This document shows positions 10,456-37,270 of a stretch of DNA of 64,000 nucleotides, one piece after another. The stretch comes from Tabrizicola sp. TH137 (lineage in GTDB: Bacteria; Pseudomonadota; Alphaproteobacteria; Rhodobacterales; Rhodobacteraceae): positions 310,001-374,000 of the forward strand of contig NZ_PKRQ01000003.1 of NCBI RefSeq assembly GCF_002855575.1. The letters run 5' to 3'. Each line of letters starts with the position of its first letter. Position 1 is the first letter of the stretch. Under the pieces are notes generated by a model. That model ran no database searches. It had not been told where the DNA came from and saw only the letters and a list, made by a program, of their open reading frames with translations. The position numbers were made by a program, and so were the translations under genes.

Positions 10456-11493
10456 TTAGCCCTGCATCCGTGCCGCCCGCGCAAGGCATTCGGCAAAGCG
10501 GTCAAAGGCGATGTTCCCGCCCGAGGCGATGACCAGCACCACCTTCCCCGCCACCGGCACCACGCCCGCCAGCACAGCCGCCAGCGCCACCGCCCCCGAC
10601 GGTTCCAGCACCAGCTTCAACTCCTCGAAGGCGCGCGCCATCGCGCGCACCACCGGCCCATCCCCGACCGACACGCCCTGAACACCGCCCGCCTGACAGG
10701 CCGCCAGCGTGGCAACCCCCGGCATCGGCGCCTGCAAGGCATCGCAGAGCGTGGGGCCGCCCGGCGCCGCGACCCTCGCTCCCGCCCGCAGGGACCGGCC
10801 CATGCCGTCATGCCCCTCCGGCTCCACGCCCCAGATCGCCACATCGGGATGCGCCGCCCGCACCGCGAGCGACACCCCGCCCATCAGGCCGCCGCCGCCC
10901 ACGGGGCTGGCCACCACCTCGGGCATCGCCCCAGCCTCGGCCATCTGGGCCAGCGCCTCCAGCGCCGTGGTCCCTTGCCCCGCCACAACATCCGCATCGT
11001 CGAAAGGATGCAGCAGCGTCAGACCCCGCGCCTCCGCCAGGTCCCGCGCCAGCGCCGCCGCCACCACCTCGCGCGGGGCGTCGCCATGATGCGACAGCAC
11101 CACCTCCGCCCCCAGCGCCTCGGTCGCGCGCCGCTTGCTGGCAGGCGCATCCACCGGCATCACGATGGTCACCGGGACTGAAAGTTCGCGCCCCGCCGCC
11201 GCCAGGCCTTGCGCGAAATTGCCCGATGAAAAGGCCACCACGCCCCGCGCCCGCGCCGCATCATCCAGTTGCATCAGCCGCCACAGCGCCCCGCGCAGCT
11301 TGAAGGACCCGGTCCGCTGCAACCCCTCCGCCTTCACGAAAAGCCGCGCCGCGCCGGACTCCTGCGCCAGCACCGGCGATTCAAGCAAAGGCGTCTCGCG
11401 CACGACATTGCGCACCCCCCGCAGGGCGGCGGCGATCCGGTCCGGCGACGGCAAATCGCCGGGGCGCAGAGAGGGCAGGTCAGTATGGGGCAT
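10456..11493 (-). CDS. PLP-dependent serine/threonine dehydratase-like enzyme
   Basis: A 345-residue fold-type II PLP enzyme. The PLP lysine lies in [12 protein letters not shown] (Lys about 65), the phosphate-binding and Asn loop in [11 protein letters not shown], and the glycine cradle in [13 protein letters not shown]; the end [13 protein letters not shown] matches catabolic threonine dehydratases. Such enzymes deaminate L-serine or L-threonine to pyruvate or 2-oxobutyrate. The start at 11493 overlaps the end of betB by 14 bp, so the two are translationally close and the gene belongs to the choline operon. Glycine betaine breakdown ends in glycine and serine, so serine deamination would finish the route; this is inference. 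An ectoine-utilisation dehydratase (EutB-like) is an alternative. Confidence 0.85.
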
Positions 11494-12934
11494 CCACCGG
11501 CCCCATGCCCACATAGACCGATTTCACCTGCGTATAATGCTCCACCGCCGCGCGCCCGTTCTCGCGCCCGACACCCGACATCTTGGACCCGCCGAACGGC
11601 CCTTCCACCGGCGTCAGGTTATAGGCGTTGATCCAGCAGGTTCCCGCCTCCAGCCGCGCAATCACCCGATGCGCCCGCGTCAGGTCCGCCGTGAACACCC
11701 CTGCCGCCAGACCGAATTCGGTGTCATTGGCCCGCGCGACGACCTCCTCCTCCGTCTCGAAATCCAGCACCGCCATCACCGGGCCGAACACCTCTTCCCG
11801 CGCCAGCTTCATGGCGTCGGTCACATCGGCAAAGACCGTGGGCTGCACGAAGAACCCCGTGTTCAGCGCCGCCCGGTCGCCACCGCAGACCAGCCGCGCG
11901 CCTTCCGCCTTGGCCGTGGCGATATAGCCCAGCACCTTTTCCATTTGCGCCGCACTGACCAGCGGCCCCATCTGCGTGGCAGGGTCCAGCGGATCGCCCA
12001 GGGTGATCCCGGCTGTCCGCGCGGCCAGCCGCTCAAGGAAACGCGCCTTGATCCCCTTCTGGACAAAGACCCGCGTGCCGTTGGAACAGACCTGCCCGGT
12101 GGAATAGAAATTCCCCAGCATGGCCGCCCCCACCGCATCCTCGACCGAGGCATCGTCAAAGACGATCAGGGGCGACTTGCCGCCCAGTTCCATCGTCACA
12201 TGCCGCACGCCATCCGCCGCCGCGGCATAGACCCGCCGCCCCGTCGGCACCGACCCGGTCAGCGATACCTTGGCCACGCGCGGATCGGTCACCAGCGCCG
12301 CCCCCACCGCGCCGCGCCCCTGCACCACGTTGAACAGCCCCGGCGGAAGCCCCGCCTCGACGAAGATTTCCGCCAGTTTCAGCGCACCAAGCGGCGTCAC
12401 CTCCGACGGCTTGAACACCATCGCATTGCCGAGCGACAGCGCCGGCGCCGCCTTCCAGCAGGCGATCTGGCTGGGATAGTTCCAGGCCCCGATGCCCACG
12501 CAAACCCCCAGCGGTTCCCGGATGGTATAAACAAAGTCGCGCCCCAGCGGGATCGTCTCGCCCGTCACCGTCGGCGCAAGCCCCGCGAACCATTCCAGAC
12601 TGTCCGCCCCGCTCGGCCAATCCGCGACCAGCGTCTCCTGAATCGGCTTGCCGGTATCCAGCGTTTCCAGCCGCGCCAGGTCATCGCCCCGGTCGCGGAT
12701 GATCTCGGCCGCGCGGCGCAGGATGCGCGCCCGCTCCACCGGTTTCATCGCCGCCCATGCGCCCTGCGCCCGGCGGGCCGAGGCCAGCGCCGCCTCCACC
12801 ACCGCCGCCGTCGCCTCATGGACGACCGCGATCACCTCGCCCGTGGCGGGATAGACCACCTCGACCGGCGCGCCCGCCTTGTCCTCCAGATAGGCGCCAT
12901 CGACGAAATGGCTGGCCTTGGGTTGCGCGATCAT
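11480..12934 (-). CDS. betB: Betaine aldehyde dehydrogenase
   Basis: An NAD(P)-dependent aldehyde dehydrogenase that turns betaine aldehyde into glycine betaine; 484 residues as expected. Signatures include [24 protein letters not shown] (coenzyme binding, cut here as a known ALDH segment around residues 145-165), the catalytic Glu in [14 protein letters not shown] and the catalytic Cys in [16 protein letters not shown]. The [21 protein letters not shown] segment near the C-terminus is typical of BetB. The start ATG at 12934 overlaps the betI stop by 4 bp (ATGA), indicating translational coupling with the repressor gene. Confidence 0.97.
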
Positions 12935-13515
12935 GCGGTCTTTCCCTTCAGTTGCACGTTCAGATAATCCAGCGCCGTCTGCACCGCCGCGCCCGCATCG
13001 GGCGGCCCGGATTTCAGCACCTCGCGCAGGTAAAGCCCGTCGATCAGCGCCCCCAGCCCTTCCGCGATCTCGGAGGCCCGCCCCCCGGCAAGCGGCCGCA
13101 GACAGGCCAGAAGATTGGACCGCAGCCGCCCCTGATAGATCGCCAGCAGCCGCTTCGCCTCTGGCACCGTCTGCGCCAGCACGTAGAAATTCAGCCAGGC
13201 CCCCACCACCTCGCGCCGGAAGTTCCCGGCGCTGAAGCTCGCCGCAAGGATGGCCCTGAGCCGCGCCTCCGGCCCCTCCGCCACCGCCAGCGCGCCCCGC
13301 ACCTCGGCCCCGTAAAGCGTCAGGACATGGCGCATCGCGGCCAGGAAAATCTCTTCCTTCGATCCGAAATAGTGATGCGCCAAGGCGCTCGACATGCCCG
13401 CGCGCTTGGCGATCTGGCTGACCGTGACATCCAGCGAGCCGACACGCCCGATCTCGCTGATCGTTGCTTTGACCAGCGCCGCCTTTCGGATAGGCTCCAT
13501 TCCAAGCTTCGGCAT
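12931..13515 (-). CDS. betI: TetR-family repressor BetI
   Basis: A 194-residue TetR-type regulator, first gene of the minus-strand bet operon. The helix-turn-helix lies in the N-terminal 50 residues ([31 protein letters not shown]), with the [13 protein letters not shown] recognition helix characteristic of BetI, and the C-terminal helices carry [20 protein letters not shown], also typical. BetI represses the bet genes and is relieved by choline. It is divergent from choX; the 94-bp space between them holds the palindrome TTGAC-TC-GTCAA at 13571-13582, a likely operator. Confidence 0.95.
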
Positions 13516-13570
13516 GTCCGGTTCGGCGTCCTGAGAAAATGCTTGCCAAACCGAATAAGCGTGAAGTCTA

Positions 13571-13582
13571 TTGACTCGTCAA
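13571..13582. promoter_or_regulatory. Putative BetI operator
   Basis: Perfect palindrome TTGAC-TC-GTCAA in the divergent betI/choX intergenic region, followed by a further TCAAC (13582-13586). Its position 27 bp before the choX start and 55 bp before the betI start suits control of both directions. Confidence 0.55.
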
Positions 13583-13609
13583 TCAACAAAAACCGACAGG
13601 GAGACTGCC

Positions 13610-14536
13610 ATGTTGAAATCCACCCTCCTCGCCGGCGTCGCGACGCTCGCGATGGCTGGTGCCGTCGCTGCCGAGGGCTGCGACACCGTGATCTTCTCGG
13701 ATGTGGGCTGGACCGACATCACCGCCACCACCGCCGCCACGACGCTGATCCTCGAAGCGCTGGGATACGAGACGGAAACCAAGGTCCTGTCGGTGCCGGT
13801 CACCTATACTGGCCTCGCGGAAGGCGATATCGACGTGTTCCTGGGCAACTGGATGCCCTCGATGGAGGCCGACATCGCCCCCTATCGCGACGCGGGCACC
13901 GTGGAAACCGTCCGCGCCAATCTGGAAGGCGCGAAATACACGCTGGCCACCAATGAACACGGCGCGGCGCTGGGCATCTCGGACTTCGCCAATATCAAGG
14001 ATCACAAGGACGCGCTCGGCGCACAGATCTATGGCATCGAACCCGGCAATGACGGCAACCGTCTGGTGCTGGAGGCGATCAACGCCCCCGAATTCGGGAT
14101 GGAGGGTTTCGAACTGGTCGAATCCTCGGAACAGGGGATGCTCGCCGAAGTCGCCAGCAAGACGGAATCGGGCGAACCCATCGTCTTCCTCGCCTGGGAA
14201 CCCCATCCGATGAACGCGAATTTCAAGCTGACCTACCTGACCGGGGGCGATGCGCTCTTCGGGCCGGATTTCGGCGGCGCGACCATCTATACCAACACCC
14301 GCAAGGGCTATGTCGCGGAATGCCCGAACACCGGCAAGCTGTTGCAAAACCTCGTCTTCACCCTGCCGATGGAGAACGAGATCATGGGCGCCATCCTGAA
14401 TGACGGCGCCGACCCGCGCGATGCCGCCAAGGCCTGGCTGGCGGCCAACCCGACGGTCTGGGAACCCTGGCTTGACGGCGTCACCACCAAGGATGGCGGC
14501 GACGCCAAGGCTGCCGTCACGGCCGCGCTCCAGTAA
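13610..14536 (+). CDS. choX: Choline ABC transporter substrate-binding protein
   Basis: A 308-residue periplasmic binding protein that captures choline for the ChoXWV importer. The signal peptide is MLKSTLLAGVATLAMAGAVAAEG with cleavage after AVAA. The mature start CDTVIFSDVGWTDITATTA matches ChoX of rhizobia and Rhodobacterales, and residues such as the Trp in LGNWMPSMEADIAPY and in VFLAWEPHPMN fit the aromatic cage for the quaternary amine. The start at 13610 has GGGAGA 6 bp upstream; a longer frame begins inside the operator. First gene of the plus-strand choXWV unit. Confidence 0.95.
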   Translation: MLKSTLLAGVATLAMAGAVAAEGCDTVIFSDVGWTDITATTAATTLILEALGYETETKVLSVPVTYTGLAEGDIDVFLGNWMPSMEADIAPYRDAGTVETVRANLEGAKYTLATNEHGAALGISDFANIKDHKDALGAQIYGIEPGNDGNRLVLEAINAPEFGMEGFELVESSEQGMLAEVASKTESGEPIVFLAWEPHPMNANFKLTYLTGGDALFGPDFGGATIYTNTRKGYVAECPNTGKLLQNLVFTLPMENEIMGAILNDGADPRDAAKAWLAANPTVWEPWLDGVTTKDGGDAKAAVTAALQ

Positions 14537-25081: not shown

Positions 25082-25111
25082 CGTAGGATGGGCAATATTG
25101 CCCATCCTACG
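25082..25111. repeat. 30-bp perfect palindrome between bioY and thiolase gene
   Basis: CGTAGGATGGGCAAT (25082-25096) followed directly by its exact complement ATTGCCCATCCTACG (25097-25111). The stop codon of the thiolase gene lies inside it. A related palindrome, GTAGGATGGGCAATCCTGCC and CATCC, is at 31213-31239. Likely a bidirectional terminator or REP-type mobile palindrome. Confidence 0.8.
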
Positions 25112-26183
25112 CCTCCAACACCACCGCCGTCCCGATCCCCCCCGCCGAGGCGATGGCGGCCAGTCCCGCCCCTGCCTCCTGATCCTGAAACAGCCGCACC
25201 GCCAGCACGGCGCCCGAGGCGCCCACCGGATGCCCCCGCGCCAGCGCCCCGCCCTTCAGGTTCACCCGGGACGGATCCAGCCCCGCCCCCTCGACACAGG
25301 CGATGGCCTGCACGGCATAGGCCTCCATCACCTCCGCCCGCTCCAGCCTGCCTGCCGCCAGCCCCGCCGCCGCCAGCGCCTCGCCGATCGCGGCGACAGG
25401 TGCCAGACCCGGCTCCCAGGGCACGCCCCCCCGCGTGACGCCTGCCGCAATCCGGCAGGCCCGCCGCGCCCGGGCCGCGACACGTTCCGAAACGACCAGA
25501 ACAAAGGCCGCCCCATCCGCCGCCACCGCCGCATTGGCCGCCGTCACATCGCCACTGACCTGCCGCGCGCGCCCCGCCACCACAGGTGACAGGGCCCGCG
25601 CAAAGTCATCCCGCGCCAGACCCGCAACCGGCACGATCTCGCCCGACAGATCGGCATGCAGCGCCTTGCGATGGCTCTCCACAGCCCAGGCATCCGCCCT
25701 TGTGCGAGAGATGCACAACCTCCGGCCCAGCGCCTCTGCGGCTGCCGCCATCTCGGGATCGCGCTCCAGCCAGGGGGTAAAGGGGGCCTGCGCATAGGGG
25801 GCAGCCGCCCCCGGCATCCGCCGCTCCGGCGCCTGGGAATAGCTCTCCACGCCCCCCGCGACCACCACCTCCGCCAGGCCCGCCAGCACCAGCGCCCGCG
25901 CCAGCAGCAGTGCATCAAGGCCCCCCGCGCATTGCCGATCCACCGTCAGCCCCGCCACCCGCTCGGGCAGGCCCGCCGCCAGCGCGACCCGCCGCGCCAC
26001 ATTGCCCCCCGGCCCTATGGCGTTGGAAATGATGACCTCGTCCACCGCCCCGGGCTCCAGCCCGGCCGCCGCAAGCAGCGCCCCCACCACCGGCGCGGCC
26101 AGCGCCTCGACCGACAAGTCGCGGAAAGCCCCGCCACGCGGCACCACCGCCGTCCGCCGCGCCGCGATCACAAAGGCGCTCAT
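25107..26183 (-). CDS. Divergent thiolase-family protein
   Basis: A 358-residue thiolase-fold protein. The nucleophilic Cys is kept (VDRQCAGGLDALLLA, Cys about 85) and so is the His of GGALARGHPVGASGAV (His about 318). Two other expected active-site residues are changed: the Asn of NEAF is replaced in VMEAYAVQA, and the Cys of the C-terminal C-x-G-G-G-x-G motif is Ala in ASAGGIGTA (about residue 345). It therefore may not do ordinary acetyl-CoA condensation or cleavage. I start at 26183 (GGGGG 6 bp upstream) rather than 26189. It is the last gene of the aroQ-aldolase-ligase run and faces bioMNY. Bacillus YhfS, next to a ligase and a bioY, is the closest contextual analogue I can name. Confidence 0.85.
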   Translation of the reverse strand: MSAFVIAARRTAVVPRGGAFRDLSVEALAAPVVGALLAAAGLEPGAVDEVIISNAIGPGGNVARRVALAAGLPERVAGLTVDRQCAGGLDALLLARALVLAGLAEVVVAGGVESYSQAPERRMPGAAAPYAQAPFTPWLERDPEMAAAAEALGRRLCISRTRADAWAVESHRKALHADLSGEIVPVAGLARDDFARALSPVVAGRARQVSGDVTAANAAVAADGAAFVLVVSERVAARARRACRIAAGVTRGGVPWEPGLAPVAAIGEALAAAGLAAGRLERAEVMEAYAVQAIACVEGAGLDPSRVNLKGGALARGHPVGASGAVLAVRLFQDQEAGAGLAAIASAGGIGTAVVLEA

Positions 26184-26268
26184 GCCCATCCCCCGCAGAA
26201 AGGCCCCGCCCCGACATCCCGGCCCAAAGCCTCAAGGGACCGCCCCCCCCGCAGCACAGCCCGCCCCA

Positions 26269-27519
26269 TCATAGCCCCGCCTCTGCCGCGATCCGCGCGA
26301 GATCGGCCTTGCCCGAAGCCAGCTCCGGCCAGTCCGCGCGCCAGATCACCGCCTTGGGCGCCTTCAGCGCCCCCAGCCGCGCCCGCGCCGCGCGCAGGAT
26401 TGCCGCCTCCTGCGCCGGATCGCCCTGCACCACCGCCACCAGCACATGGCCCCGCATCAGATCGGCGCGTGGCAGCACCGCCACCCGCCGCACCCCCGGC
26501 AAAGCGGCCAGAAAGGCCTCGATCTCTTCGGGGAACACGTTCTGATCCGCCACTGTCAGCATCCGCCCGATGCGCCCGGCCAGGAAAAGCTCCCCCCGCT
26601 CCATCCAGCCCATCTCGCCGACCGAGAGCCAGCCCGCCCGCCGCAACGCAGGCATCCCCCGCCCCCCGGCATAGCGGTCGCAAAGATAGGGCGACCGCAC
26701 CCAGACCTCGCCCAGCCCGCCGGGCGCCAGCACCGCACCATCCGCCGCCCGGATTTCAACCTGCACGCCCGGATAGGGTCGCCCCACGCTGCCCTCCGCA
26801 GATCCGGCATCGGTCAGGGTGATGAAACTCGCCTCCGCCGCGCCATAGAATTCCCGCACCTCCGCCGCCGGGGCCAGCACGGCCAGCGCCGCCCGCAAGA
26901 GGACGTCCAGCTTCGACCCTCCGACAAGGACAACCCGCAGATCCGGCAAGCGCTGCCCCCCGGCCTCGGCGATCAGGCGCAATTGCGCGGGCGTGGCATA
27001 AAGCACGGCAACCTTTCGCGCCAGCAAGGCCGCCACCTGGGCATCCGGGCGCAGTCCGGCCAGAAGATGCACCTCCGCCCCGAGGCAGGCCCCTTCCAGC
27101 GCGCCGTAAAGCGACAGGGAATGCACCATCCGCCCCGGCACCGCGACCCGCACCCCCGGCCCGATCCCGAAGAGGCGCTGGTTCACGAGGAAACTCGCCC
27201 ACCAGCTGCGCTGACTGCGCCGGATGCGCCGTGGCACGCCCATGGAACCGGAGGTCAGCGTCTCGAAGACCGGGCGGGACCGCGGCCGCGCCCCGGCTTC
27301 CGGTGGCGCAAGGTCGGGGGCGCCGATACGGAAGGGCAGCCCGCAGGCGGCCCGGGCCAGCGCCGCCGCCACGGCCGCTCCGCAGGGGGATTCGGCGATG
27401 ATCGCCGAGGCCCCGGCGGGGACCGGCGCCGCTTCGCGCCCCTCCGGCCCGATCAGCCGGGCATCCGGGTGCCAGCGAAACCGATCCGGGATCGCCGCCG
27501 CCCGCACCACACCCCTCAC
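26269..27519 (-). CDS. Short AMP-dependent acyl-CoA synthetase-like enzyme
   Basis: A 416-residue adenylate-forming enzyme, shorter than the usual 500-550 residues because the N-terminal subdomain is reduced. The P-loop is FETLTSGSMGVPRRIRR (Met replaces the usual Thr, Arg the usual Lys), the A5 motif is EFYGAAEASF, the hinge region is SVGEMG-ERGELFLAGRIGRM, and the catalytic Lys is in ELASGKADLARI near the end. It should activate an acid as acyl-AMP and probably acyl-CoA. A GTG start at 27519 overlaps the aldolase stop by 4 bp (GTGA). Resembles Bacillus YhfT by size and context. The substrate is unknown; a pimelate-like acid is a speculation based on the bio neighbours. Confidence 0.82.
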   Translation of the reverse strand: MRGVVRAAAIPDRFRWHPDARLIGPEGREAAPVPAGASAIIAESPCGAAVAAALARAACGLPFRIGAPDLAPPEAGARPRSRPVFETLTSGSMGVPRRIRRSQRSWWASFLVNQRLFGIGPGVRVAVPGRMVHSLSLYGALEGACLGAEVHLLAGLRPDAQVAALLARKVAVLYATPAQLRLIAEAGGQRLPDLRVVLVGGSKLDVLLRAALAVLAPAAEVREFYGAAEASFITLTDAGSAEGSVGRPYPGVQVEIRAADGAVLAPGGLGEVWVRSPYLCDRYAGGRGMPALRRAGWLSVGEMGWMERGELFLAGRIGRMLTVADQNVFPEEIEAFLAALPGVRRVAVLPRADLMRGHVLVAVVQGDPAQEAAILRAARARLGALKAPKAVIWRADWPELASGKADLARIAAEAGL

Positions 27520-31249: not shown

Positions 31250-31498
31250 TCACGCCCGCCAGACCTCCGCCCGTTCCCGCGCCAAGGTCGCCGCCTCCAC
31301 CTCCCCCAGCCGCCGCAAGGCGCCTTCCACCCCCGACCGCCGCACCTCCCGCTCCCAGACCCGCCGCGCGCTCTCTGCCGACCAGGGCAGCGCGGCCTCC
31401 TTCAGCCAGAGCCGCAGCGGCGCGGGCAGCGCGTCATGCGCCCGCATCGGGCAGCCGTGCCGCCACCGCGCCCTGGGCGACCGCAGGTTGCCGCTCAT
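31250..31498 (-). CDS. DUF6525 family small protein
   Basis: An 82-residue basic protein. The conserved pattern is [20 protein letters not shown], then [20 protein letters not shown], then [20 protein letters not shown] and [14 protein letters not shown] know this Rhodobacteraceae family as DUF6525. The ATG at 31498 overlaps the stop of the COG0523 GTPase (ATGA), so it is translated after it and probably shares its zinc-responsive promoter. Function unknown. The longer open frame overlapping the GTPase by 240 bp is out-of-frame shadow and was discarded. Confidence 0.75.
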
Positions 31499-32703
31499 GC
31501 CGCGCGCCACAGCGGGAAGGGATCGGCCATCGCCTCCCAGGCCTCGGGCGCGAATTCCGCCGCGGGCACCAGCGCCGCCTCCAGCGCGGCAAGGATCGCC
31601 GCTTGGTTCATTCCATGCCCGATGAAGACGATCTCCTGCCGCCGGTCGCCCCAGGGCTCCACCCACTGCGCCCGCACCGCCGCCAGCCCCTCGCCCCCCT
31701 GCGGCCAGCGCGCCTTCGGCACCGCAGCCCACCACCGTCCCAGCGGCGATACCGAAGACACCGCCCCTGCCAGCGAGAATTCCGCCGCCCAGTCGGGCCG
31801 CGTGGCCAGCCAGAAATGCCCCTTCGCCCGGATCACCCCCGGCAGATCGCCATTCAGCACCGCATGGATGCGCGCCGGATCAAAGGGCCGCCGCGCCCGG
31901 AAGACGAAGCTTTCGATCCCGTATTCCTCGCTCTCCGGCACATGCGAGGCGAAACCATAGAGTTCCTTCGCCCAAAGCGGATGCTCCGCCGCCTTGTCGA
32001 AGTCGAACAGCCCCGTCCCCATCACCGCGCGCAGGTCCACCGCACCGTGATCCACCTCGATCACCCGCGCATCCGGGTTCAGCGCCGCGATGATCTTGCG
32101 CGCCGCATCCACGCGCTCGGCCCCGGCATCCGACACCTTGTTCAGCACCACCACATTGGAAAACTCGATCTGCTCGGTCAGCAGATTGACCAGCGCGCGC
32201 CCGTCGCCCTCCGGCGTTTCCACCCGCGCGGCCAGGAAATCGTGGCTGGAGAAATCCTTCAGCAGGTTGATCGCATCAACCACCGTCACCATCGTATCCA
32301 GCCGCGCCACATCCGACAGGCTTTCCCCTTCCGCATCGCGGAAGTCAAAGGTCGCGGCCACCGGCAGGGGTTCCGAAATCCCGCTCGATTCGATCAGCAG
32401 ATGGTCAAAGCGCCCCGCCTCGGCCAGCTTCCGCACCTCGCTCAGCAGGTCGTCGCGCAGGGTGCAGCAGATGCAGCCATTGGTCATCTCGACCAGCTTC
32501 TCCTCCGCCTGATGCAGCTCCGCCCCCGCGCGGATCAGATCGGCGTCGATATTCACCTCGGCCATGTCATTGACGATCACGGCCACCCGCAGCCCCTGCC
32601 GGTTGTTCAGCACATGCGACAGAAGCGTGGTCTTCCCCGCCCCGAGGAACCCCGACAGGACGGTGACGGGAAGGCGGCTGTCTCTCTGAGCGGCAGATGG
32701 CAT
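31495..32703 (-). CDS. COG0523 (CobW/ZigA) GTP-dependent metallochaperone
   Basis: A 402-residue G3E GTPase that hands a metal, probably zinc, to client enzymes under starvation. Motifs: Walker [18 protein letters not shown], the metal-binding CxCC in [14 protein letters not shown], the Mg/switch Glu in [12 protein letters not shown], the guanine-specificity NKVSDAG and the C-terminal CobW_C domain ([20 protein letters not shown]). A Zur-box palindrome lies 16 bp upstream of the ATG, which points to the zinc branch rather than cobalamin (CobW). It is followed by the overlapping DUF6525 gene. Confidence 0.93.
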
Positions 32704-32889: not shown

Positions 32890-35436
32890 TCAAGCTGTCC
32901 CGGCAAGGCCTTGGCCCGGCCGCATCGCACCCCGCGCCGCCCACCAGGCCGCCACTTTCCGCTGCCCGGCGGTCAACCCGATCCCCAGCGCGATGCCGCC
33001 CACAATCGACAGCGCCGAAAAGGCCCATCCCGGCAGCACATCCGCCCAACCCGCCATCACCACCTCGGGCAGCAGGCGATGGGTCAGGTAGATGAGATAG
33101 CTTGACGCCGCCACCGGCAGGATCGCCCCCCGCAGCCAGTCCGGGCAGGACAGGCGCGGCACGAACAGAAGCAGCGCCAGCACCCCGAAGATGCAGCCAT
33201 ATTTCAGCCAGGCCCCGTACCAGTTCCCGCCCAGCCAGGCGACCAGCGGCATCACCACCGCCGCCAGCCCCAGCACGATCCACTTCCGCCGCCGCGTATC
33301 CGCGCAACCGATCAGCCAGCCAAAGCAGGCCAGATAGGCCACCCAGGGCAGCGTGAACAGCTTCCGCCCCCCAAGGCCCAGCAGATCCGCCCCCCAAAGC
33401 CGCAGGGCCATCGCCCCCGCCAGCGCATAAAGCCCCGCCCGGAAAGGATTTTCCCGCACGACCCGCCGCACCCCGGGCAGCAGCGCCAGCCCCGCCAGCA
33501 GCAAAAGCATCTGCACCCAGACCTCGACGAACCAGTAAAGAAAGGGCAGCCGGTCATGGGTCACCGGATCGCCGATCCCGAAATTCGACACCAGCAACGC
33601 CGATCCCCAGGGCACCTGCCCCCAGGCGACAGAATAGCCGGTCAGGATCAGGTAATAGGGCAACAGCACCCGCCCCATCGGCCGGATCAGCGCCGCCCAA
33701 TCCCCGGCGGCAATCGCGGCGCGCTGGAACCGCGCCCACATCAGCCCCACCAGCACCACCATCGCCGCCGCACCGCCATAGACGGGCCACAGCGTCTCAT
33801 GCGTCACCACCACCGCGACAATGGCCCCGGCCCGCACCGCGATCTCGGTCGCAACACCCTGTTTTCCCGCGCCTTTCTCCATCCGCGCCAAGGCCGCGAC
33901 CGGCATCTCCTCCCATCCCTCCGGCACATGGCCCAGCGCCTTTTCCAGCGCCAGCACCAGTTCCACATGGCGCAGCGAATCCCCCGCCAATCCGGTGAAC
34001 GTGTCCCCCGGCCCGACTGGCAACGGATGAAAGCAGGCCCGGAAGGCGGCGGTCACGCCCGTCTCCGCCTCCGGCACCGCCACCCGCCCCAAGGCCGGGT
34101 AATCCACCTTGCCCGAGGCCAGCCGCGGCAGGGCCTCCACCGCAAAGGCATCGACATGCCGACGCATCACCCCCGCCACCTGCGCGGCCAGGTCCGCCAC
34201 ATCCGACGCCCGCTCCGCCCCTTCATAGGCCACGCGCAGCCCCTGGTCCCCGCCAAAGACCGCCACCCGCAGCCCGCGCTCGGCCAGCGCCGCCTCCACC
34301 GCGTCATGCCCGATCCGCACACCCGCGATCTTCGACATCCGCCGCTTGCGCCCGACGATCCGGTAAACCCCATCCGCCTCGCGCCGCGCGACATCCCCCG
34401 TGGCCAGCGCGCAAAGCGTTGATCCCAGGGCAAGATCAGACCGCGCGCTGGCGTAACCCATCATCACGTTCGGCCCGCGATACTCCAGTTCCCCTTCCTC
34501 CGCCTCCTCCCGCCCGCTCTCGTCGCGCAGCGTCAGATGCCCCCCCGGAACCGCAAAGCCGATGCACCCTGCCCGCGTCACCGCCATCTCCGCCGGAAGA
34601 CAGGCGATCCGCGCCACCGCCTCGGTCTGGCCATACATCGCATGGAACCGTCCGCCCCGCGCCGCCATGGCCTCGGCGAAGCGCCGCTGCACCGCAGGCG
34701 CCAACCCGCCCCCCGCCACGGCCAGGAAACGCAGGCCCGGCCAGGCCACATCCGCGAATCCCGCGCGGTCCAGCAGGTCATACCCCATCGGCACGGTCTG
34801 GATATTCGTCACCCCCAACGCCGCTGCGCGGTCAAGAAACCCTTCCGCCCGGATGCCGCCCTCGGCCAGCCAGACCGACGCCCCCGCCGCAAGATGCGAG
34901 GTCACGACCGACAGCCCGAAGGAATATTGCAAGGGCAGCACCAGCGCCGCCCGATCTGCCGCCGTGATCTCCAGCACCTCGGCAATCTGGGCCGCATTCG
35001 CCGCCACCGCCGCCGCCGACAGCCGCACAGCCTTGCCATGCCCCGTTGACCCCGAGGTCAGCATGAGCAGCGCCAGATCGGGATGCAACGGCCCCGCCCC
35101 ACGCCCGTCCAGCGTCAACCGCCAGCGCCCGCCCGCCAGTGCGAACACGGCTTCGGGCGCGAAATCCCGGCGGAACCGCTCCATCGCCGCGCTGTCGCCG
35201 GGCGGCAGCAGCGCCACCGCATGGCCCGCCGACCAGGCGCCCAGCAGCGCGGCGATGCTTTCGGCGCAGGTCACCGCCTCCAGCGCCACAAGCTTTCGCC
35301 CCGCCCCCAGCCGCCGCGCAAATCCTGTGGCCCGCTCTGCCAGCGCCGCCCGCGACACCTGCCTCCCATCCCCAAGGACCAGGGCCACCGCCTCGGGCGA
35401 CCCGGAGAGGAAAGAGGCAAGCGCAGCGAAGGACAT
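32890..35436 (-). CDS. Adenylation - carrier - membrane acyltransferase (AT3) fusion protein
   Basis: An 848-residue three-part enzyme. Residues 1-450 are an adenylate-forming domain: P-loop LTSGSTGHGKAV (about 127-137), YGQTEA (268), TGDVARR (346), GRKRRMSKIAGVRI (362) and catalytic Lys in LPRLASGKVDY (443). Residues 465-520 are a carrier domain with the phosphopantetheine Ser in LAGDSLRHVEL (Ser 487). Residues 530-835 hold about ten hydrophobic helices and begin with the R-X10-H signature of acyltransferase-3 proteins (Arg 535, His 546). The protein could activate an acid, hold it as a thioester and pass it through the membrane to an outer acceptor, like DltA-DltC-DltB in one chain. Substrate and acceptor are unknown. 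A CtrA-like box lies 51 bp upstream of the start. Confidence 0.85.
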   Translation of the reverse strand: MSFAALASFLSGSPEAVALVLGDGRQVSRAALAERATGFARRLGAGRKLVALEAVTCAESIAALLGAWSAGHAVALLPPGDSAAMERFRRDFAPEAVFALAGGRWRLTLDGRGAGPLHPDLALLMLTSGSTGHGKAVRLSAAAVAANAAQIAEVLEITAADRAALVLPLQYSFGLSVVTSHLAAGASVWLAEGGIRAEGFLDRAAALGVTNIQTVPMGYDLLDRAGFADVAWPGLRFLAVAGGGLAPAVQRRFAEAMAARGGRFHAMYGQTEAVARIACLPAEMAVTRAGCIGFAVPGGHLTLRDESGREEAEEGELEYRGPNVMMGYASARSDLALGSTLCALATGDVARREADGVYRIVGRKRRMSKIAGVRIGHDAVEAALAERGLRVAVFGGDQGLRVAYEGAERASDVADLAAQVAGVMRRHVDAFAVEALPRLASGKVDYPALGRVAVPEAETGVTAAFRACFHPLPVGPGDTFTGLAGDSLRHVELVLALEKALGHVPEGWEEMPVAALARMEKGAGKQGVATEIAVRAGAIVAVVVTHETLWPVYGGAAAMVVLVGLMWARFQRAAIAAGDWAALIRPMGRVLLPYYLILTGYSVAWGQVPWGSALLVSNFGIGDPVTHDRLPFLYWFVEVWVQMLLLLAGLALLPGVRRVVRENPFRAGLYALAGAMALRLWGADLLGLGGRKLFTLPWVAYLACFGWLIGCADTRRRKWIVLGLAAVVMPLVAWLGGNWYGAWLKYGCIFGVLALLLFVPRLSCPDWLRGAILPVAASSYLIYLTHRLLPEVVMAGWADVLPGWAFSALSIVGGIALGIGLTAGQRKVAAWWAARGAMRPGQGLAGTA

Positions 35437-35486
35437 GGCGGGATCACAGGGGATGAAGACCCCAACCCCTATGATATCCGACCTTT

Positions 35487-35515
35487 TTAATCAACTGTTA
35501 ATTTCCGACGGAAAT
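35487..35515 (-). promoter_or_regulatory. CtrA-like box and adjacent palindrome
   Basis: TTAA (35487-35490), seven bases, TTAA (35498-35501), an exact TTAA-N7-TTAA. Abutting it is ATTTCCG-A-CGGAAAT (35501-35515), a perfect 15-bp palindrome. Both lie in the 93-bp gap between the RTX gene and the fusion enzyme. Confidence 0.5.
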
Positions 35516-35529
35516 AATCGGAAAACGGA

Positions 35530-37098
35530 TCATTGCAGCTCGAAATCCGCCACCCGCAACGCGGTCACCCCGGTCAGCGTCGCCACCATCACCGCCGCCG
35601 CCTCCGTCCCCGTCCCATCGGCATCCCAGAAAAGCTGCCGGGTGGCCGTGTTGAAATAGAACCAGGACTCCCCGCTTCCCCCCGCAGACGTCCCGTTGCG
35701 GAACCGCAGCACCGTGTCCATCCCCTCGAAATTCACGGTGTTGAAGACGAAAGCATCCACCCCGCTGGCAAAATCCGTGATCGTGTCCCCGGCGGGGTTG
35801 CCGCCATCCCAGGTGTTGTAGAAGAACCGGTCCCGCCCCGACCCGCCCGTCAGGACATCCGCCCCCTCGCCGCCGACGATGCTGTCATTTCCGGCCCCGC
35901 CCGAAAGCGTGTCGCTGCCGAAATCCCCCTCCAGCCAGTTGGCCAGCCGGTTCCCGGTCATCCGGTCGCCCAGCGCGGTGCCATAAAGGTTCTCGATGCT
36001 GACCAGCGTCTCGACATTGCCGAACCCGTCATTCTGCACCTGCCCGCTGCTCCGCGACAGATCGACCACCGCGCCCGTCTCGACGGTCTCTTTCCAGAAC
36101 TCCATCGTATCCAAGCCCGCGCCCCCGTTGATCGAGTCCCTGCCATCCCCGCCGATGAACCAGTTGTCGGCCCCGTTCCCCGTGATCGCATCGCCAAAGC
36201 GCGTGCCGAACACCCCCTCGATGTTCAAGAGCGTGTCCTCCTGTCCCCATCCATCCCGGGCCACGCCTGTGGCAAGGTTGACGTTCACCCCGCGCAGCCC
36301 GCCAAAATCGGCATCCCGATCATAGCGCACGGTGTCATGCTCCCCGCCGCCGTCGATGGTGTCGCGCCCCTTCAACCCGGAAAAGCGCTCCGCTTCCGCC
36401 GATCCGGTGATCTGATCCGCGAAACGCGACCCTTCCACCCTTTCGACAGAGGTCAGCGTATCCGTGCCGCCCCAACTGTCTGTCGCCGTCCCCGTTTGAA
36501 GATTGACCACCGCCCCCCGGAAGGCCGTCCTGTCAAAGAAACTTTCCTGAAGCGAATAGGTGTCCCGGTCCGCTCCGCCGTCGATCACGTCATTTCCGGC
36601 ACCCGCATTGATCCAGTCAAAGCCCGCACCGCCAAAGATCGTGTCATTGCCGGGGTTCTGCCCGCCGATCAGGTCATCATCCGCATCGCTGCCAAGGATC
36701 CGGTCATCCCCCCGCAGCAGGGCTGTCCAGAAATCGAAGGCATCACCCGGCCGGTACTGCCCCCGATGCATCCAGCCCAGCCAGAGATGGTCCATCACCT
36801 CGGCCGGCAGGTCCAGCGATGTCGCCCGAAGCCAGGTGGCACCGCCGACCTTCACCGTCATCCCGGTCAAGCTGCCCTCGACCAGCCGCGCCCCATCCGG
36901 AAAGGTCCCGTCACTATAGGTCAGGCCCGTGCCGCTGAACCGGATCTCCACCGTGCCCCAATCCTCGGATTGCCAGGTCACGATGAAACTGCGCGACGTC
37001 CTCGAGACCGTCGTCCCACTGTCCAGAAAGTTCACGTCAAACAGGTCGGGCCAGTAAATTCCCCCGTTGCCGGGGTTCGAAATCGTCACGACAGCCAT
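35530..37098 (-). CDS. RTX (hemolysin-type calcium-binding) protein
   Basis: A 522-residue acidic repeat protein without an N-terminal signal peptide, as expected for type I secretion. The first 110 residues are unique (MAVVTISNPGNGGIYWPDLF, then TYSDGTFPDGARLVEGSL). Calcium-binding nonapeptides of the GGxGxDxhx type follow in several blocks: GGAGFDWINAGAGNDVIDGG, GGDGRDSINGGAGLDTMEF and SGGAGNDSIVGGEGADVLTG. Between them are longer repeats with VNLATG / VVNLQTGTATDSWGGTDTL and NVETLVSIENLYGTALGDRM. The last about 70 residues (DTITDFASGVDAFVFNTV to the LQ end) are the usual C-terminal secretion region. I start at 37098, which has GGGAG 8 bp upstream. No TolC/HlyB/HlyD genes are in the window. 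Confidence 0.9.
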   Translation of the reverse strand: MAVVTISNPGNGGIYWPDLFDVNFLDSGTTVSRTSRSFIVTWQSEDWGTVEIRFSGTGLTYSDGTFPDGARLVEGSLTGMTVKVGGATWLRATSLDLPAEVMDHLWLGWMHRGQYRPGDAFDFWTALLRGDDRILGSDADDDLIGGQNPGNDTIFGGAGFDWINAGAGNDVIDGGADRDTYSLQESFFDRTAFRGAVVNLQTGTATDSWGGTDTLTSVERVEGSRFADQITGSAEAERFSGLKGRDTIDGGGEHDTVRYDRDADFGGLRGVNVNLATGVARDGWGQEDTLLNIEGVFGTRFGDAITGNGADNWFIGGDGRDSINGGAGLDTMEFWKETVETGAVVDLSRSSGQVQNDGFGNVETLVSIENLYGTALGDRMTGNRLANWLEGDFGSDTLSGGAGNDSIVGGEGADVLTGGSGRDRFFYNTWDGGNPAGDTITDFASGVDAFVFNTVNFEGMDTVLRFRNGTSAGGSGESWFYFNTATRQLFWDADGTGTEAAAVMVATLTGVTALRVADFELQ

Positions 37099-37270
37099 CA
37101 CTCGCACTCCCAAAATCACCAAAGCCGACACAGATCACGGCCCCGTGATCCTGCCCCGAATCGCCCGTCTCAGGCAATGCCCGGGGTGGCGGCCCCCATC
37201 CCCCCTTCCCTTCCCGCCCGCCCGCGTGTAATGCCCCTGCCCTGACCCTTCCCTCCCCGGAGCCCCTGCA

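Follow-up and report, generated by a model that had tools for sequence, protein, structure and literature searches.

A one-polypeptide adenylation–carrier–AT3-like membrane protein of Tabrizicola sp. TH137 and the iron link of its relatives

In the Dlt system, adenylation, carrier loading, and membrane acyl transfer act in series toward an extracytoplasmic acceptor, with D-alanine as the substrate. In the AlmE-AlmF-AlmG system, which places glycine onto Vibrio lipid A, an adenylation (A) domain and a carrier feed an envelope acyltransferase. We analyzed a gene of Tabrizicola sp. TH137, lying in a 64,000-nucleotide stretch of contig NZ_PKRQ01000003.1 (positions 310,001 to 374,000; hereafter the window), whose product combines an A domain, a carrier domain, and an acyltransferase-3 (AT3)-like membrane domain in one chain (Table 1). 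The Alm enzymes differ from it in being separate proteins, in using an amino acid, and in ending with a different acyltransferase. Dlt has the same serial order but distributes it over the separate proteins DltA, DltC, DltB, and DltD, and the Dlt A domain has Asp at code position 235, where the fused family has Ser or Cys in 102 of 105 sequences. The original prediction had treated DltB as doing the same job as AT3, a parallel that needs correction in that DltB is described as an MBOAT, structurally distinct from the AT3 fold (PMC12423673). VanT is an AT3 fused to a cytoplasmic enzyme, with a serine racemase in place of adenylation and carrier domains (same source). With the AT3/TmAT superfamily (OafB, OatA, WecH, HGSNAT), the fused family shares the R-X10-H motif, the Gly residues of transmembrane helices (TMH) 2 and 6, and a profile match in most members; unlike that superfamily, it lacks the first Arg of the RXXR motif and the TMH2 Phe, and it has an activating enzyme and a carrier attached. 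Our search of the open literature, with subscription papers mostly outside it, found no description of the architecture or of an iron link, and the iron link of the fused family is new.

We lean toward the view that the protein is a one-polypeptide enzyme of acyl activation and transmembrane acyl transfer, which many bacteria switch on under iron shortage. This view is built on sequence comparison, namely a single chain, invariant key residues, partly lost residues of the coenzyme A (CoA) site, and iron-related neighbors and operators in many relatives. Carrier-fed transfer, a substrate other than an amino acid, an envelope acceptor, and a role in ferric capture are what we infer for its function.

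Among 295 searched genomes of the window's family, matches to the protein at E ≤ 1e-30 were present in 15, including the window's own genome, with two copies in two of the 15; the second genome of the same genus in that search had no copy. A scan of named genomes gave at least 572 candidate stretches, of which the best 80 were kept; by title, Rhizobiales, Rhodobacterales, and Actinobacteria make up most of these 80, the rest being a few Gammaproteobacteria and unclassed metagenome-assembled genomes (MAGs). One full-length open reading frame (ORF) was found in 76 of these 80 loci, and among 92 plasmid records with a match, 80 extend over at least 80% of the query; on these grounds, a chance fusion or an assembly error was dropped as an explanation. 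Many of these records are near-identical Rhizobium or Leisingera plasmids, and the gene is mostly annotated there as "AMP-binding protein". The same frame of the plus strand contains three stops.

All motif counts rest on one MAFFT alignment of 105 proteins, made up of the window protein and those from the 104 of 110 loci with a full-length ORF; two split, one truncated, and three frame-broken copies were left out, and thinning at 85% identity leaves 95 distinct sequences. Lys443, Ser487, Arg535, and His546, the residues on which the original prediction was built, are invariant in all 105, and His786 is kept in 104. The closest relative, from a Rhodobacter MAG (L036, 79% match), reads in two frames at about 10670–10740 of its locus and was left out of the counts.

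The predicted arrangement of three domains in one polypeptide stands, with an 848-amino-acid ORF and domains that are clear in relatives, where, at E ≤ 0.01, AMP-binding is matched in 15/15, Acyl_transf_3 in 12/15, and PP-binding in 7/15. For the window protein itself, the proposed Pfam comparison succeeds for AMP-binding (E 9.9e-39) but gives a PP-binding score of 12.3 bits, under the cut-off of 20.8, and no Acyl_transf_3 match. In two further loci, the chain is divided: in one (L012/L028), a separate AT3 ORF comes after the A-carrier ORF, with a 17-base overlap in stop-to-stop reading, and in the other (L014/L030), the AT3 ORF immediately precedes the A-carrier ORF. Both AT3 ORFs, at 34.9 and 92.6 bits, exceed the Pfam cut-off; PP-binding is matched by the A-carrier ORF of L030 (E 5.2e-5) and not by that of L012, although the latter has the aligned Ser. 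With an AT3 gene adjacent in both, the split loci support the A-carrier and AT3 parts as a functional pair and, together with the invariant residues and the AT3-like part, they agree with the earlier idea of a self-contained enzyme that activates, carries, and transfers.

AlphaFold2 modeled the full chain from an 86-row alignment with a predicted local distance difference test score (pLDDT) of 90.6 and a predicted template modeling score (pTM) of 0.65, and the AT3 part alone with values of 92.2 and 0.90. In our reading of the latter model, its helices are consistent with ten membrane spans. The single domains are thus well modeled, but the pTM of the full chain does not fix the placement of the domains relative to each other or the reach of the carrier to both active sites. 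Foldseek comparison of the full chain with viral models gave six matches at E ≤ 0.001, the named ones being A-domain-type enzymes.

The claim that the membrane part is AT3-like is supported through the relatives, of which 77 of 86 fused AT3 domains match PF01757 at E ≤ 0.01. When the domains of nine close relatives were scanned alone, seven matched most of the profile (E 3.3e-5 to 1.3e-7), two of the nine exceeding the curated cut-off and two having no match, and a profile–profile comparison with 19 other AT3s by hhalign gave 97.7% (E 2.2e-12). We call the membrane part a divergent AT3/TmAT-like domain. The window's whole genome has no PF01757 match at E ≤ 1e-10, and the divergent domain may therefore be its only AT3-type protein.

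Comparison with other AT3s points to a changed donor site. As controls, we used 44 AT3s, those of 50 loci (L160–L209) matching at 1e-8, which come from the window's relatives and class, with Actinobacteria unrepresented; several of the ORFs are long and probably encode other AT3 fusions, and neither the controls nor the 105 fused proteins were thinned in the joint alignment. A core of residues is common to both sets: the TMH1 Arg (41 R and 3 K in 44 controls, Arg in 105/105 fused), the His of R-X10-H (44/44 and 105/105), Gly564 of TMH2 (43/44 and 105/105), Trp635 (44/44 and 102/105), Gly706 of TMH6 (44/44 and 105/105), and Tyr783 (43/44 and 103/105). Other residues are largely lost from the fused proteins. 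The first Arg of RXXR in TMH3 is present in 41/44 controls and 0/105 fused proteins, an RXXR at or near the site in 38/44 and 1/105, the TMH2 Phe in 39/44 and 2/105, and the second RXXR Arg in 43/44 and 51/105; the TMH1 Asp occurs in 25/44 controls, with no Asp among the fused residues listed for 102 of the 105.

In TmAT, the conserved residues are reported to form the acyl-CoA site, contacting the adenosine and phospho-pantothenate parts (PMC12423673); the OafA mutants R69A and R72A in RXXR are described as keeping ≤0.1% of the signal (PMC7448272), and simulations of OafB propose the TMH1 Arg and the second RXXR Arg as contacts of the CoA 3'-phosphate (PMC9833829). A carrier-bound arm has no nucleotide and therefore no need of such contacts, so that the pattern fits a switch of donor. 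The losses in the alignment thus support, but do not prove, the carrier as the donor instead of CoA.

The A domain suggests what kind of acid may be activated. At code position 235, where other enzymes have the Asp that binds the alpha-amino group, the 105 sequences have Ser (52), Cys (50), or, once each, Ile, Ala, and Gly, and position 331 (Arg276) is Arg in 102. VinN-type enzymes likewise have Arg at position 331, where it is described as binding a second carboxylate (PMC12186527, PMC11253843); they differ from the fused family in keeping Asp235 and in a loop one residue shorter. The best PDB sequence match of the window protein is an oxalate-CoA ligase. We infer from these residues a small acid without an alpha-amino group, probably with a second acidic or polar group. 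At two positions of the pocket the window protein departs from the consensus, with Thr at 214 (Gly in 85/105) and Ala at 239 (Thr in 97/105), and its substrate may therefore differ. Related A domains also occur outside the fused proteins: in L155, L156, and L157, stand-alone A domains lie beside acyl carrier protein and short-chain dehydrogenase/reductase genes; acyl-protein synthetase and acyl-CoA reductase genes accompany those of L155 and L156, and those of L155 and L157 sit in polysaccharide loci. In L053, a second AMP-binding-type ORF (12497–14200, plus strand) begins right behind the fused gene.

The neighborhoods of relatives contain ferric transport genes. In 24 of the 47 loci L069–L115, which are mostly actinobacterial (three are Proteobacteria by title), a Fe-type substrate-binding protein (SBP) gene and a permease gene adjoin the fused gene, on either side and in several orientations. 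For the SBP of L074, the only one of this set compared, the best PDB matches are ferric-binding proteins (E 3.6e-75). Of eight linked genomes, seven have exactly one such SBP at E ≤ 1e-20 and the eighth has one full copy and two partial matches; by its coordinates, the copy adjacent to the fused gene is the best match in each of the eight. A chance linkage was dropped on account of this single SBP in seven of eight linked genomes of 6.2–9.1 Mb. The same linkage is seen in all three actinobacterial annotated plasmid regions (R. fascians D188, M. chubuense NBB4, and R. opacus B4). In two rhizobial loci among the 33 of L036–L068, L056 and L057, the gene is divergent from a different ferric-type transporter, the SBP of L056 matching a putative iron-binding protein (E 4.4e-138). 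No such ferric linkage was found in the other seven of the ten annotated plasmid regions, which are alphaproteobacterial or related; in that of Rhodobacter sp. CZR27, another ATP-binding cassette (ABC) transporter lies near the gene, and in that of Leisingera sp. S132, a zinc ABC transporter. As another iron hint, outside the fused family, an R. leguminosarum plasmid (L158, 1–9344) carries a relative consisting of the A domain only, with a TonB-dependent siderophore receptor and an iron-siderophore binding protein encoded nearby.

Iron-type operators were found in two lineages. We searched for the 19-bp DtxR/IdeR iron box, using a consensus sequence and single-base shuffles as a control. A box with ≤4 mismatches precedes 17 of the 27 genes linked to a transporter and 12 of the 23 without such linkage, giving 29/50 actinobacterial-type loci, against 0/54 other loci; shuffles reached this level in 0/250 cases for actinobacterial-type promoters and in 1/270 for the other promoters. 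Of the ten linked genes without their own box, nine have one upstream of the SBP gene, and 12 of 15 SBP promoters have a box with ≤4 mismatches, a set with no shuffle baseline.

In the second lineage, the motif is TGA-N9-TCA, described as the RirA/IRO operator (PMC6386902, PMC8822346). Among relatives sharing at least 40% identity with the window protein, the 150 bases upstream of the gene contain it in 17 of 31 cases after deduplication (22/38 before), mainly rhizobial, while other spacings from 4 to 15 give ≤3, the region from −350 to −200 gives 0, and shuffles give a mean of 0.7 and a maximum of 3. In most carriers, the motif includes a TTGAC resembling a −35 box. The variant TTGA-N9-TC is found in 19/31 promoters, including that of the window gene, with other spacings at ≤3/31. 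The Iron-Rhodo-box of Rhodobacteraceae is reported to resemble the RirA box and to be bound by IscR in R. sphaeroides (PMC4618611). By these sequence comparisons, the family has a strong link to iron and the window gene a weaker one.

A further element ties the window promoter to a ferric gene of the same genome, where a gene for a FutA-type ferric-binding protein (52% to the L056 SBP) lies on another contig and has no TGA-N9-TCA in its promoter. An 18-bp stretch at −85 and −84 of the two promoters agrees with two mismatches, which 0/300 shuffled pairs reach. With both variable positions open, the pattern has two perfect sites in 4.66 Mb, those two, and one site with two mismatches; the backward pattern has none. 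The pattern was derived from the very sites that it then found, and its independent content is the lack of a third perfect site, the empty backward control, and the shuffle result. The L036 promoter lacks the element and keeps TTGA-N9-TCGG. We weigh the element lightly because it was drawn from its own two sites and is missing from this close relative.

Several observations weigh against our view. On the regulatory side, the window gene has no iron transporter nearby, its best iron-box site has 8 mismatches, and its operator-like site is only the degenerate TGA-N9-TCG; of the 12 relatives nearest to the window protein, only L147 and L005 have the exact TGA-N9-TCA. A Fe-type SBP is found in none of the 16 family-search loci L020–L035 and is absent from 31 of the 33 loci L036–L068. 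On the structural side, the window AT3 domain scanned alone has no Acyl_transf_3 match even at E ≤ 10, its model has no PDB match by Foldseek at E ≤ 0.001, and the full-chain pTM leaves the carrier–AT3 arrangement unfixed. The proposed CoA 3'-phosphate contacts are partly kept (the TMH1 Arg in all fused proteins and the second RXXR Arg in about half); the Arg at 585 in 51/105 could be the RXXR arginine shifted by one, D or E at 531 in at least 43/105 could be a shifted TMH1 Asp, and the first RXXR Arg is absent in three of the 44 controls too. Since the CoA contacts are not all gone, we slightly lowered our confidence.

Taking our view as a working model, the cytoplasmic A domain would adenylate a small carboxylic acid without an alpha-amino group, and the acid would be loaded on the phosphopantetheine of Ser487. 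The loaded arm may then reach into the AT3 pore on its cytoplasmic side, at the place otherwise taken by CoA, and the AT3 domain would pass on the acyl group, the acceptor being a common extracytoplasmic one. Since the gene resembles iron-uptake genes in its behavior, the product would most likely assist an FbpA/FutA-type importer by capturing or retaining ferric iron, perhaps acting as an iron ligand itself. A bolder version, which we put forward tentatively as possible rather than expected, is a horizontally mobile single-gene device for iron acquisition, induced by iron starvation, which would activate a hydroxy- or dicarboxylic acid from central metabolism, keep it on its carrier, pass it through an AT3 pore suited to the carrier arm rather than to CoA, and so build a tethered ferric ligand on the outer membrane face or wall that feeds FbpA/FutA importers.

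How acyl groups move through the membrane in AT3 proteins is still debated, and the pore model could naturally be tested on an AT3 family that has an altered CoA site and a carrier fused to it. AT3 proteins are described as thought to take the acyl group from acyl-CoA rather than from a carrier protein (PMC9558356). Were the product an iron ligand, it could account for the uptake of ferric iron by bacteria such as S. fredii HH103, for which no siderophore is reported as detected (PMC6386902; cited for this trait only), and a gene that many rhizobia, roseobacters, and soil actinobacteria carry would gain a function.

The alternative that survives best, though we think it unlikely, is general acylation of an envelope glycan or lipid, with iron shortage as just one inducing condition, as in other envelope remodeling. 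AT3 proteins are reported to acylate mostly extracytoplasmic sugars (PMC9558356), and single loci lie near envelope genes, L146 near glycosyltransferase and CDP-alcohol phosphatidyltransferase genes and L149 near lptD/lptF/lptG. The alpha-type loci have no recurring neighbor beyond Sinorhizobium/Ensifer loci at one common chromosomal place, so the acceptor should be a common one. As the original prediction had noted for the window, there is no obvious acceptor pathway among the neighbors; none for an acceptor, glycan, or lipid recurs in the ten annotated regions. Against this alternative, iron uptake as such is indicated by the ferric transporter adjacent in 24/47 and 2/33 loci and by the iron-type operators of the two lineages. 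The earlier suggestion of surface-glycan acylation as the main role is thus not sustained, and the survey of homologous neighborhoods that it called for found no recurring glycan pathway but revealed the ferric transporters and iron operators, which had not been considered. Membership in a larger biosynthetic cluster was dropped, as no precursor genes recur among the neighbor clusters listed.

A minimal siderophore synthetase, in which a small amine or alcohol would receive the acyl group released by the AT3 domain and one protein would both make and export a diffusible chelator, appears improbable. It would share the iron-type operators and the ferric ABC linkage of relatives with our view and would suit an A domain without the amino-anchoring Asp and with Arg276 in nearly all members. 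However, FbpA/FutA importers take up ferric iron, not siderophores, and the ten annotated regions with a full-length homologue, in PLSDB gene tables that are incomplete, contain no TonB receptor or siderophore esterase. That the AT3 domain is an ordinary acyl-CoA user, merely co-localized by fusion with an A-carrier part serving another enzyme, is very improbable: Arg535, His546, Gly564, and Gly706 are all kept, acyl-CoA is the reported donor of AT3s tested in vitro (PMC9558356), and VanT offers an AT3 fused to a cytoplasmic enzyme without a carrier (PMC12423673), but the first RXXR Arg and the TMH2 Phe are lost in nearly all fused proteins and Ser487 is invariant.

Table 1. Features of the fused gene and its promoter in window coordinates.
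Feature	Position	Strand	Basis
Whole gene, adenylation–carrier–AT3-like membrane protein, 848 aa	32890..35436	-	ORF list, Pfam, alignment, AlphaFold2
Adenylation domain, residues ~1-450	34087..35436	-	Pfam AMP-binding E 9.9e-39; Foldseek A-domain matches, best E 3.3e-23
Catalytic Lys443 codon	34108..34110	-	Lys in 105/105
Arg276 codon, code position 331 by alignment to 3wvn (VinN Arg331)	34609..34611	-	Arg in 102/105
Carrier domain, residues ~455-520	33877..34074	-	Weak PP-binding; 7/15 relatives match at E ≤ 0.01
Ser487 codon, presumed phosphopantetheine site	33976..33978	-	Ser in 105/105
AT3/TmAT-like membrane domain, residues ~527-835	32932..33858	-	Model pLDDT 92.2; relatives' PF01757 matches; hhalign 97.7%
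R-X10-H motif, Arg535 and His546	33799..33834	-	105/105 fused
Degenerate RirA/Iron-Rhodo-like site TGA-N9-TCG, at -58	35478..35494	-	Promoter comparison with relatives
18-bp element common to the promoter of the genome's ferric-binding-protein gene	35504..35521	-	Promoter comparison

A defense system was also considered and dropped, PADLOC having found 0 families. Directly upstream of the fused gene, on the same strand and after a 93-base gap, lies a gene for an RTX calcium-binding repeat protein (35530–37131, minus strand), and directly downstream, again on the same strand, a CobW-type GTPase gene (31495–32703, minus strand), whose product is a possible metallochaperone. By tblastn, the block IMPase–RTX–fused gene–CobW–LysR–MetF is kept in L036. 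Further along the window (25107–27519, minus strand), a thiolase-like ORF stands beside a 416-amino-acid AMP-binding enzyme with AMP-binding_C, both of which are present in L058 too. On an R. phaseoli plasmid (L151, 15784–17704), YcaO-like and TfuA-like genes lie downstream of the homologue.

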